DNA from: Alphaproteobacteria bacterium
GTDB lineage: Bacteria > Pseudomonadota > Alphaproteobacteria > CAAGCB01 > CAG-977
Direction of reading: 5' to 3'
NCBI GenBank assembly: GCA_024407875.1
Contig: JAKSVT010000013.1
Span: 1-56,692 of the forward strand
Length of the DNA: 56,692 nt
Shown: positions 42,071 to 50,319 of the stretch, one piece after another
Numbering within the stretch: position 1 is the first letter of the stretch
Layout of the letters: the number at the start of each line of letters is the position of its first letter
Notes under the pieces: model-generated
Seen by the model: the letters and a program-made list of their open reading frames with translations, nothing else
The model's database searches: none
Told to the model about the DNA's origin: nothing
Program-made: the position numbers and the translations under genes

Positions 42071-42499
42071 CTCCATTTACATTGATTTTTATACATCTTA
42101 AGCTATTTTAAAATCAACGAATTAATTATATCACATTATTATTTTTAGCTATTTTTTAACGAAAGAATTAGAAGTTGCAAAATGTTTTGTTTAACAAAAC
42201 AGGTATCCTACCTCACATTTTTAACACTTAAGTTATTGATTTTAAACAAAACACCTCTTAAGTTCCTATTTCCAATGGGTTGAGGCCATTTTGTAAAAAA
42301 TTAAATTTCTTTATTTATATTGTTTAGATTTTAATTTATTTAAGTTATCATCGAGTTTTAAATCATTTTTTCTTAACGTATTCAGTACTGACTGCATTAA
42401 TTCAAATTTGAAGTTTTTTATCAAATATGATAATAGAAAATTTGAATCATACTGTATGTGATTCGCATATCAACTTTCTTTATAAGGGAGGTGATTAGT
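42071..42499 (+). ncRNA. Long structured leader or small RNA upstream of a microprotein
   Basis: A gene-free stretch with several nested inverted repeats. CAAAATG (42178-42184) pairs with CATTTTG (42287-42293) and CCTCA (42211-42215) with TGAGG (42281-42285). TGTTTTG/CAAAACA forms a hairpin at 42183-42201. ATTCAAATTT (42400-42409) pairs with AAATTTGAAT (42438-42447) around a TATCA-AATA-TGATA hairpin. GAATCA/TGATTC repeats lie at 42444-42464. CACCTC (42252-42257) could pair with GAGGTG at the downstream ribosome site. CTTAAGTT occurs twice (42227, 42257). It matches no RNA family I know; no RNase P, tmRNA or 6S signature is seen. Transcription and function are inferred. Confidence 0.45.
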
Positions 42500-42580
42500 T
42501 TGTTCTTAATTTTAAAAATCTTAAAAATAATTTTGTTAACATTAATAATTTTATTAATTTTAATTAAAAATGCTTTTTAA
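42500..42580 (+). CDS. Unannotated 26-residue hydrophobic peptide (type I toxin-like)
   Basis: A TTG start is preceded by AAGGGAGGTGATT (42484-42496), almost a full complement to the 3' end of 16S rRNA, at good spacing. The frame encodes 26 residues, nearly all Leu and Ile with Lys at positions 6, 9 and 23, then NAF and a TAA stop. This is one membrane helix with basic ends, the form of small membrane toxins (TisB, Ldr, Fst class) and other membrane microproteins. A rho-independent terminator follows 8 bases after the stop. The long structured leader is another trait of type I toxin messages. I see no proven antisense RNA gene. Composition alone could arise by chance in AT-rich DNA; the ribosome site and terminator argue against that. 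Confidence 0.6.
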   Translation: MFLILKILKIILLTLIILLILIKNAF

Positions 42581-42588
42581 GATAAATT

Positions 42589-42622
42589 AAAGGGATACTT
42601 TTGCAGAAGTATCCCTTTTTCT
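42589..42622 (+). terminator. Terminator after the microprotein gene
   Basis: AAAGGGATACTT (42589-42600) pairs with AAGTATCCCTTT (42607-42618), 6-base loop, T-run after. Confidence 0.93.
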
Positions 42623-42771
42623 GTATTTGTTTGTTCTTAATTACATTATATTTAATAACATAATTTCATATTTTTGTCAATATCAACAAGACTTTCTATT
42701 TACAAAAAATTAGAGATATTCCTAATAATTTTAATCTAAATGAAATATAAATTAGTGGCAACACTAATTCT

Positions 42772-43944
42772 CTATTTTATGTCGTACTCTTTAGCATATT
42801 TAGAATAATTAGCCAAGGCATCTTCGGTTTGTTGTATAATTTCCTTAATTTTTGTTTCTACTATATTAAACGGCAACAACGTCTTAATTAAATCATCATT
42901 TGTGATATTTTTGCCTTTACCATTAACCATTGATGTTTGCTCACCGTTAATTCCTTCAGATGGGGTTATGTCATACGCTGGCGCTAACTTCCATTGATTA
43001 TCGCTATTCAGCATAAAAGAAAAGTTTTTAGAATGATCATCTTTATTACCTGATTTGACATTAAATACCATTAGTCTAGCCATTTTTTCTACTTCTCTAA
43101 CATCTTTTGTAAGAATTGAAGTTAGTTTTAGCAAAGAAGAATAATCTAAACTAGCAAATCTATGACTAGCATGCAAAAGTCCTGAAGCCGTATGTATATG
43201 AACCTTTTTATTACCATCTCTATCAAATCTTTTAACGCCAAAATGTCCTAAACAATTTTTTGAAGGAAACAAATAAGTTTCAGGCATTTCAATCCCAGCT
43301 TCTTTGGCAAGCAATGAATAAATATATTCCTGAACACCAATATTTTTGTTATCTAAAGATGAAGCAAATTTTATTAACCAATGAGAAAAACCTTTTTTTG
43401 ATTCATTTCCATGTATAATTGCTTGTTTATCATCTGAAACAAGTGCAACTATTTTTGGTCTTGCACCTGCTGATGAACCATTTAAAGTTGAAAGTTTATC
43501 TACTAAATCGGAGCTTTTACCCTCTAATATATGATTTGCTTCTGAACATAATGAATCTAATTCAATATCCCCAACAAATTTTATATCTTCTTCTGTAATT
43601 GGCTCATATTCTAATGCTCCCATAGAATTAAGCCCAATCATCGAAAGTCTTTGTAAAGGAGTAATTGACATTAAACTTAATCCTTTACGTTGTAATGCTC
43701 TATCAAGTAATAAACATCCCCAACCATCAGGCAGACTATCATTAAAAACACCAAATAAACCATCAAAAGTTCTTTTAGTATCTTCAAAAACTTGTGATTT
43801 TAACGGAAGCATAAAAGGCGATATATTAATGTTTTTTGATAAAAACTCTAGAGCATATTCAAAAAATATACGCTGCTTATTATCTTCTAAAACACCGACA
43901 AAATGTCTTGTACCATAACTATTTAGAAATACATTTAATCTCAT
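42772..43944 (-). CDS. hipA: HipA-family kinase toxin
   Basis: 390 residues. The N-terminal subdomain (LNVFLNSYGTRHFVGVLE, DGLFGVFNDSLPDGWG, LSMIGLNSMGALEY) and the kinase core with SSAGARPK (loop), HWLIKF, NVKSGNKDDHSKNFSFM (catalytic Asp and Asn) and LAPAYDITPS (metal Asp) are all present, so it should be an active Ser/Thr kinase. E. coli HipA phosphorylates glutamyl-tRNA synthetase; the target here is unknown. It overlaps hipB by 4 bases (ATGA). It runs toward the microprotein terminator from the other side. Confidence 0.92.
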   Translation of the reverse strand: MRLNVFLNSYGTRHFVGVLEDNKQRIFFEYALEFLSKNINISPFMLPLKSQVFEDTKRTFDGLFGVFNDSLPDGWGCLLLDRALQRKGLSLMSITPLQRLSMIGLNSMGALEYEPITEEDIKFVGDIELDSLCSEANHILEGKSSDLVDKLSTLNGSSAGARPKIVALVSDDKQAIIHGNESKKGFSHWLIKFASSLDNKNIGVQEYIYSLLAKEAGIEMPETYLFPSKNCLGHFGVKRFDRDGNKKVHIHTASGLLHASHRFASLDYSSLLKLTSILTKDVREVEKMARLMVFNVKSGNKDDHSKNFSFMLNSDNQWKLAPAYDITPSEGINGEQTSMVNGKGKNITNDDLIKTLLPFNIVETKIKEIIQQTEDALANYSKYAKEYDIK

Positions 43945-44240
43945 TTTATACCGCCTCTTTTGCGTTCTTTAGTATTCTTATTATCAAAGAGGCTTACTGG
44001 CTTATCATCAATCTTAAACAAAAGCTCAAGATCATTTATATTACCGAGAGCCAAAGCTATATCAATCAATGATTTTAAAGAAATCTCGCCAGTTCTTTCA
44101 AATCTCTTGATACTGCCCAAACTAACACCAGAACGCAAAGACAAACCTTCTTGTGTTAGATTTTGCTTTAGGCGAACAGTCTTTGCCCTTAAAGCAATAG
44201 CTTGTGCAACTTCTTGTTGTGATTGTAATATAAAAGTCAA
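43941..44240 (-). CDS. hipB: HipB-like antitoxin, XRE family regulator
   Basis: 99 residues with an XRE helix-turn-helix (RLKQNLTQEGLSLRSGVSLGSIKRFERTG, written here with the Gln in place of the common Ala). It neutralises HipA and represses the pair by binding upstream. The C-terminal tail is basic (KERKRGG). It is translated before hipA with a 4-base overlap, as is usual for this module. Confidence 0.9.
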   Translation of the reverse strand: MTFILQSQQEVAQAIALRAKTVRLKQNLTQEGLSLRSGVSLGSIKRFERTGEISLKSLIDIALALGNINDLELLFKIDDKPVSLFDNKNTKERKRGGIK

Positions 44241-44448: not shown

Positions 44449-44598
44449 ATGGAAGAAAAAACAAAATTAAAAACTGATAATAAAACAAAAGAAAACGAAA
44501 TTATCGAATTAAAAGATGAAGACTTATCAACAGTTTCTGCCGGCTCTTTTGATCATGTTATAAATCCACCTGGACATATTGATAATAGCAATGATTAG
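44449..44598 (+). CDS. 49-residue peptide with leader-like Ser-Ala-Gly motif (possible RiPP or bacteriocin precursor)
   Basis: The ATG has AAAGGAAAA upstream at good spacing. The first 20 residues are Lys/Glu/Asn-rich. Then IIELKDEDLSTVSAG (18-32) resembles the ELxDxxLxxVxGG leaders of double-glycine bacteriocins and several RiPP classes, with Ala-Gly where Gly-Gly or Gly-Ala is usual. The remaining 17 residues (SFDHVINPPGHIDNSND) would be the core. No modifying enzyme, peptidase or ABC exporter is encoded nearby. It might be an orphan precursor acted on in trans or simply a small acidic protein. Confidence 0.5.
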   Translation: MEEKTKLKTDNKTKENEIIELKDEDLSTVSAGSFDHVINPPGHIDNSND

Positions 44599-48690: not shown

Positions 48691-48774
48691 GCTGTTCCTC
48701 CTTTTAATGATAAATTATGGGCTGGTCGAAAGACCCAGGTCCACCGAACAGCGGGGATTTACCCCGCTATTTTT
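48691..48774 (+). ncRNA. Candidate small RNA with anti-Shine-Dalgarno loop
   Basis: A GC-rich island in AT-rich DNA. GCTGTTC (48691-48697) pairs with GAACAGC (48746-48752). Inside are CCTCCTTT, a match to ribosome-binding sites, and a CTGGTC-GAAA-GACCCAG hairpin with a GNRA loop. AGCGGGG/CCCCGCT (48750-48768) with a T-run is a terminator and shares bases with the closing stem, so the two could exclude each other. TAAATT near 48676 may be its -10. It lacks the SRP RNA loop. Transcription is inferred from the structure. Confidence 0.55.
48750..48774 (+). terminator. Terminator of the small-RNA candidate
   Basis: AGCGGGG (48750-48756), ATTTA loop, CCCCGCT (48762-48768), then a short T-run. Confidence 0.85.
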
Positions 48775-49023: not shown

Positions 49024-50319
49024 ATGGAACGTCATGCTATAGAACAATTAATTAATTGGAAAAACAATATTAATAGAAAACCTCTCATAATACAAGGGGC
49101 ACGTCAAGTTGGCAAAACATGGCTAATGAAAGAATTTGGTAAAAAACATTTTTCAAAATATGCTTATTTTATTTTTGAAAAGAATGAAAAACTAAAAAGT
49201 ATATTTCAGGGAGACCTAAATACTCATCGAATACTTGAATCATTAGAAATTCTTGCTGGATTTAAAATCGATAAAGATACACTTATTATTTTTGATGAAA
49301 TTCAGGATTGTCCTGATGCAATTACATCTCTAAAATATTTTAATGAAGAATTACCTGAATATCCAATAATTGCCGCAGGAAGTTTACTTGGCGTTTCCAT
49401 GCATAAAGGCTTATCATTTCCTGTAGGGAAAGTTAACTTTATGACATTATATCCTTTGAGCTTCTTCGAATTTTTGGATGCAATTGGAGAGCAAATAAAA
49501 TTAGATCACTTAAAAAATAATAATTTTGAAGTTTTGAAACCTTTTCATGATGATTTAATTGCTTTATTAAAAAAATACTTTTTTGTTGGTGGAATGCCTG
49601 AAGCAGTAAATAGTTATGTGACGGAACGTGATTTTAATAAAGTAAGAACAATTCAAAAAGAAATATTAAATGCTTATGCTCATGATTTTTCAAAGCATAT
49701 TCCTATTTCCAATCAAGCAAAAGTAAAACTTATTTGGGATTCAATACCTTCTCAGCTTTCTAAAGAAAATAGAAAATTTGTGTATGGACATATTGAAAAA
49801 GGAGCAAGAGCAAAAGATTTTGAGGATGCTATAGCATGGTTAGAAGCTTGTGGTTTAATTTATAAAATTAACAAAATTAAAAAGCCTGATTTACCATTAG
49901 CAGCATATAAAGATTTGTCCGCATTTAAATTGTTTATGGTTGATTTAGGTTTGTTATCTGCAATGGCATCTCTTGATGCAAAAGCACTTATATCCGGCAA
50001 TGAATTTTTTGAAGAATTCAAAGGATCTTTAACTGAACAATATGTGTTACAACAATTAAAAATATATTCGAATAATTTGGATATATACTATTGGGCTAAA
50101 GATACAGGAACTAATGAACTTGATTTTGTTGTTCAAAAGACAAACGAAATTATACCTATTGAAGTAAAAGCTACAATTAATTTACAAGCAAAAAGTTTAA
50201 AATCTTATATAGAAGTATTTAATCCAAGTAAAGCAATACGTTATTCTGGAGCGACATATAAGAAAAACGAAGTAATTACAGATATTCCTCTATATAATGT
50301 ACCTTATATAATGAAATAA
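49024..50319 (+). CDS. DUF4143-type AAA ATPase
   Basis: 431 residues. The N-terminal AAA domain has IIQGARQVGKTWLMKEF (Walker A) and TLIIFDEIQDCP (Walker B), with AAGSLLG as sensor 1. The C-terminal DUF4143 part has FMVDLGLLSAMAS, LTEQYVLQQL and ELDFVVQ...IPIEVKA, a nuclease-like fold. The family is widespread and of uncertain role. AT richness and the 33-bp repeats upstream suggest an accessory gene. AAGGGG is the ribosome site. Confidence 0.85.
   Translation: MERHAIEQLINWKNNINRKPLIIQGARQVGKTWLMKEFGKKHFSKYAYFIFEKNEKLKSIFQGDLNTHRILESLEILAGFKIDKDTLIIFDEIQDCPDAITSLKYFNEELPEYPIIAAGSLLGVSMHKGLSFPVGKVNFMTLYPLSFFEFLDAIGEQIKLDHLKNNNFEVLKPFHDDLIALLKKYFFVGGMPEAVNSYVTERDFNKVRTIQKEILNAYAHDFSKHIPISNQAKVKLIWDSIPSQLSKENRKFVYGHIEKGARAKDFEDAIAWLEACGLIYKINKIKKPDLPLAAYKDLSAFKLFMVDLGLLSAMASLDAKALISGNEFFEEFKGSLTEQYVLQQLKIYSNNLDIYYWAKDTGTNELDFVVQKTNEIIPIEVKATINLQAKSLKSYIEVFNPSKAIRYSGATYKKNEVITDIPLYNVPYIMK

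Follow-up and report, generated by a model that had tools for sequence, protein, structure and literature searches.

Does the very short open reading frame at positions 42500-42580 of the forward strand encode a membrane toxin, and what would keep such a toxin silent? Type I toxin-antitoxin loci easily escape notice, both the toxin and its RNA being tiny and poorly conserved, and the peptide gene considered here is too small for gene finders. It lies in a 56,692-nucleotide stretch of alphaproteobacterial DNA, hereafter the window. The analysis points to a putative type I toxin-antitoxin module of a mobilizable element, left in the window after most of that element was lost, and to this reading, drawn from sequence, we assign a probability of roughly 60%.

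Read directly, the locus runs AAGGGAGGTGATTAG TTG TTC TTA ... GCT TTT TAA, with the TTG start at 42500-42502 and the TAA stop at 42578-42580, and it specifies the 26-residue peptide MFLILKILKIILLTLIILLILIKNAF. Leu and Ile account for 17 of the 26 residues, in agreement with the Leu/Ile helix described in the initial annotation, while the lysines that were said to form its ends occupy positions 6, 9 and 23 and are not strictly terminal. The start is preceded by the Shine-Dalgarno (SD) sequence AAGGGAGGTGATT (42484-42496, forward strand). SD strength was computed from the 15 bases upstream of a start against the anti-SD, the usual bacterial anti-SD sequence being assumed, and the background consisted of 20-kb stretches of the same genome, 454 kb at first and 1.13 Mb later. 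The duplex at this locus reaches -19.2 kcal/mol, a value attained by 0 of 337 long ORFs (median -5.0 kcal/mol). It ranks strongest among 46,289 start triplets in the 454 kb and again among 115,082 in the 1.13 Mb, where only the two copies of the locus reach -19.2 kcal/mol and the next-strongest site stands at -16.7 kcal/mol. The TTG-started frame with a near-perfect SD, as originally proposed, is thus real.

The composition of the peptide was evaluated by shuffling. The ORF was shuffled 20,000 times with its dinucleotide composition preserved; 6.6% of the shuffles stay open, and none matched the hydrophobicity of the peptide. T occupies codon position 2 in 20 of the 26 codons, compared with 12 codons for position 1 and 8 for position 3. 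The Leu/Ile helix is therefore more than a by-product of A+T richness. These figures, together with the rank of the SD and the intact state of both copies, tell against reading the ORF as decayed or as a product of chance in A+T-rich DNA, with an SD that is there by coincidence. We consider this the least probable of the accounts weighed here and a highly improbable one, even if the region has a G+C content of only 22% and is rich in Leu, Ile and Lys codons, no homologues were found, and the element copy in the window is a truncated remnant.

Downstream of the ORF, the strong terminator announced 8 bases past the stop was recovered as a 13-bp hairpin with a T-tail (42589-42618), with a folding energy of -16.4 kcal/mol and a z-score of -5.0. 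An untargeted repeat search then gave one notable direct repeat, whose first copy, DRa (ATTAGTTTGTTCTTAATT, 42494-42511, forward strand), covers the start codon, and whose second copy, DRb (ATTTGTTTGTTCTTAATT, 42625-42642, forward strand), lies just past the hairpin. The two copies match at 17 of 18 positions and are 131 bases apart; such a match was seen in none of 3000 right-flank shuffles and in 6 of 1000 shuffles of the whole region. Taken on the reverse strand, the complement of DRb pairs with the peptide start site at -16.6 kcal/mol, and antisense pairing as good in the window formed by the ribosome-binding site and start was obtained in 6 of 5000 shuffles.

Once the repeat had been found, a leftward promoter and a hairpin covering the SD were sought as predictions of an antisense model. 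A promoter-like TTGACA-N17-TATTAA is present on the reverse strand at 42652-42680 (-35 at 42680-42675, -10 at 42657-42652). A site of this type occurs in 0.42% of local shuffles, and in the same genome one such pair is met in roughly every 20 kb of strand; over the whole region, promoter-like sites are no commoner than in shuffles, and no clear promoter was identified in the region for the rightward peptide mRNA. From the promoter, DRb and the hairpin, an antisense RNA of about 65 nt can be predicted (42580-42645, reverse strand), with the DRb complement followed by the terminator. On the forward strand, RNA folding places an 8-bp hairpin at 42444-42464, where the peptide mRNA presumably begins, followed by an SD-covering hairpin at 42465-42499, in which CTTTCTT pairs with the AAGGGAG of the SD. 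The stability of the SD-covering hairpin was equalled by 18 of 1000 shuffles of 42462-42500, and that of the 5' leader fold by 13 of 1000 shuffles of 42440-42500. Counting both strands, the 1.13 Mb contain 40,098 ORFs of 12-55 aa. When these were screened for the combination of a strong SD, a hydrophobic product, a hairpin downstream and a second occurrence of the start region, the two copies of the locus alone showed all four features; the other ORFs whose start region recurs (14-16 of 16 bases matching) have no SD, and several of them lie inside a repetitive gene.

The initial annotation had offered a membrane microprotein or a type I toxin. This is still the best-supported class for the peptide, and within it the direct repeat, the SD-covering hairpin, the inward promoter and the antisense pairing shift the balance clearly towards a type I toxin-antitoxin locus. 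The repeat, the SD-covering hairpin and the promoter had gone unmentioned in that annotation, as had the second copy and the mobile-element setting described below. If the mobile element simply encoded a translated membrane microprotein with no antitoxin, such as a transfer helper or a membrane-stress peptide, the repeat and the inward promoter would be incidental; each of the start-codon repeat, the SD-covering hairpin and the promoter at its predicted place is rare in shuffles, and we hold this account to be unlikely, while acknowledging in its favour that the SD and hydrophobicity evidence is independent of the antisense model and that the peptide gene sits beside the putative oriT described below.

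The type I toxin-antitoxin reading also places the peptide on a mobile element, and here the evidence comes from a second copy. A search of the bacterium's own genome revealed, on contig C20, a copy identical over the whole peptide unit. The block common to both contigs measures 572 bp with 99.3% identity by blastn (42154-42725 of the window, forward strand; 21395-21966 of C20), and its four differences, at 42156, 42159, 42210 and 42690, all fall outside the peptide unit. On C20 the block starts just upstream of a MobC-like gene, which points away from it, and its other limit falls inside a tyrosine integrase fragment (Pfam Phage_integrase), at the 3' end. The last bases of this integrase gene are kept in the window at 42700-42725 on the reverse strand, convergent with the peptide gene, through overlap with the fragment at L007:9942-10172 (L007 numbering refers to C20). 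Near the other end of the block, direct reading gives the inverted repeat GTTTTGTTTAACAAAAC followed by a nic-like GGTATCCT(G/A) (42184-42216, forward strand). Position 42210 is A in the window copy (TATCCTA) and G in both C20 copies (TATCCTG), and we take TATCCTG to be the nic motif of MOB-P elements. The site TATCCTGC also precedes mobC in a congener and, within the bacterium's own genome, on contig C2, where Pfam finds next to it, in a sister element, a MobA/VirD2-type relaxase and MobC. We read the inverted repeat and the TATCCTG site as a putative oriT.

The MobC-like ORF on C20 has no Pfam match of its own and is 43% identical, over part of its length, to that of the congener. It is adjoined by an IS21-type istA, with an interrupted frame, and istB (L007:6835-8877), and no relaxase was seen in the C20 stretch that was read; the C20 element is itself degraded. 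With its TATCCTA site, the mobC gone and only 26 integrase bases left, the copy in the window is best read as what is left of a C20-type, putatively mobilizable element.

Contig C20 also holds a third, partial copy (L007:10294-10457), in which the oriT half is 87-89% identical and is followed by a leader with the SD-like GGGGGGTAATTA. Having neither the peptide nor an SD-covering fold, this copy was ruled out for covariation analysis. Within L007:10294-13000, the third oriT half and its leader are followed by a gene for a 763-aa autotransporter, and over 50 bases the terminator of this gene and the one in the peptide unit are 84% identical. The peptide locus and the autotransporter locus therefore have both ends in common and differ in the gene between them. 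An autotransporter beta-domain gene on C20 marks the host as Gram-negative. The host also looks alphaproteobacterial, since the three best PDB matches to its polynucleotide phosphorylase (4aid, 4aim and 4am3) are structures of the Caulobacter enzyme.

The convergent integrase end, about 80 bp from the hairpin, and the T-rich tails of that hairpin on both strands lend themselves to a further explanation, namely a regulatory leader or a device for convergent transcription, in which the rightward RNA and the hairpin would control or end integrase transcription coming from the right and the ORF would serve to time ribosome occupancy. A leader peptide needs no membrane helix, and the peptide is more hydrophobic than any of its 20,000 shuffles; in addition, nothing comparable to the unit was present after the integrases of the related elements inspected. 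We therefore regard this explanation as very unlikely. What the same slot contains beside one related integrase speaks for a toxin-antitoxin function. In the same genome, contig C11 (L052 490-2520) carries a full-length tyrosine integrase, a relative with 70% identity, followed by a gene for a Gp49/HigB-like toxin and one for an addiction-module antidote protein, and this HigBA-like type II pair occupies the place that corresponds to the peptide unit. This suggests, from one case only, that the slot after the integrase tends to hold addiction modules.

In the window, the remnant is adjoined on the reverse strand (42772-44240) by genes for a HipA-like toxin (Pfam HipA_C and Couple_hipA) and a HipB-like HTH antitoxin. 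The neighbouring Sel1 and dUTPase genes are kept in three congeners, where the stretch with tRNA-Arg and HipBA is not beside them, so the surroundings of the peptide unit are variable. Two other features of the window were recorded on the forward strand. A 49-aa ORF at 44449-44598 contains ELKDEDLSTVSAGSFDHVINPPGHIDNSND and has the look of a bacteriocin-type leader, with no Pfam or NCBIfam match. At 48718-48765, Rfam detects a DUF3800-XI RNA motif with 64.9 bits, which sits upstream of an AAA_14/DUF4143 ATPase gene (49024-50319) and not of an evident DUF3800 gene.

Among known type I systems, the closest in organization is par of the Enterococcus plasmid pAD1 (Fst toxin, RNA I and RNA II), a comparison that was made after the DRa/DRb repeat had been sighted. 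RNA-controlled modules of this kind have otherwise been described on plasmids of Gram-positive bacteria. In par, convergent promoters and RNAs meet at a bidirectional terminator, DRa and DRb lie over the initiation site, a 5' stem-loop covers the SD, and a helix forms at the 5' end (PMC7472228). The present locus likewise has a short ORF, preceded by a strong SD, for a peptide that is hydrophobic and transmembrane in character, and it lies on a putatively transferable element. Its convergent RNAs, both predicted here from sequence, would end at a common hairpin that is a strong terminator on the forward strand, has a weaker U-tail on the reverse strand, and probably acts in both directions. 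One repeat lies over the toxin start site and the other beyond the terminator, near the predicted 5' end of the antisense RNA, and the predicted folds include both a 5' stem-loop that would sequester the SD and a 5'-end helix. The YUNR U-turn motif is absent from the RNA I terminator loop, here predicted to be UGCA, and this motif is not found in all par homologues (PMC7472228). The differences lie in the peptide and in the carrier. Unlike Fst, the peptide lacks the PXXXG(C) motif, the conserved Trp and a charged C-terminal tail, and it contains no Pro, Gly or Trp at all. Whereas the Fst subfamily is placed in Firmicutes (PMC7472228), the host here appears to be a Gram-negative alphaproteobacterium, and the carrier would be a mobilizable integrated element instead of a plasmid.

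The E. coli systems Ibs/Sib and ShoB/OhsC also possess very short, nearly all-hydrophobic peptides in a Gram-negative host, those of Ibs and ShoB being 19 and 26 aa in length (PMC8309996). In composition, the peptide is closer to these two than to Fst. Sib spans the entire ibs ORF, and the gene for OhsC is divergent, whereas the antisense RNA predicted here would overlap the terminator only and act via the repeat. With TxpA/RatA and BsrG/SR4 of Bacillus prophages, the locus shares, on prediction, a toxin mRNA and a convergent antisense RNA that overlap at their 3' ends. In these two systems the 3' overlap is long, and they are not known to pair at the start site through direct repeats, in contrast to the pairing predicted here.

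A search for the same ribosome site and peptide in relatives had been put forward as a check, and it returned only the second copy in the own genome. The DNA of the unit gave nothing but A+T-rich noise in 61 relatives, and the SD/start pattern gave nothing in the order beyond the own genome. When up to three mismatches were allowed, this pattern had three other matches among 385 genomes of the class, equal in number to the reversed-pattern control and none with a hydrophobic ORF, and the exact pattern had five matches in 84,980 species genomes, all unrelated. No homologue of the peptide was found beyond the own genome in the order or in 289 genomes of the class, and none of the peptide or the unit in viral contigs or plasmids. 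The peptide has no Pfam or NCBIfam match, and Rfam gave no par match, its below-threshold matches not being credible. We would say that the locus probably works like par, but, given the missing PXXXG, Trp and charged tail and the lack of a match in these three databases, we do not assign the peptide to the Fst family. On the sequence evidence, the locus is probably a type I toxin-antitoxin system in which a peptide unrelated to Fst is controlled in the manner of par. We see about even odds for a par-type system, with direct-repeat pairing at the toxin start and a common terminator, that carries a non-Fst toxin on an alphaproteobacterial mobilizable element; this would reflect either convergent evolution or a wide, undetected spread of the par control scheme outside Firmicutes.

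From this anatomy we infer two transcripts that would pair in cells, a translated and toxic peptide, and an addiction function. A rightward RNA (about 42440 to 42622) would encode the membrane peptide of 26 aa, and the 5' hairpin would keep the very strong ribosome site of this RNA closed. A convergent RNA of about 65 nt, starting near 42645, would carry the DRb complement and end at the common hairpin. Because DRb repeats DRa, this short RNA could pair with the start-codon region of the mRNA, as well as through the terminator, and translation would be blocked. As long as the element is present, the peptide would not be made. When the element is lost, the short RNA would be expected to decay first, upon which the peptide would be made and the inner membrane damaged, so that cells losing the element would be penalised.

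If this reading is true, the par control scheme would extend beyond the Fst peptide and beyond Gram-positive hosts. Searching by architecture, that is, for a strong SD, a short helix, a hairpin and a start-site repeat, would then find loci where homology fails. For this poorly studied bacterial group, it would add an addiction device to its integrated mobilizable elements.
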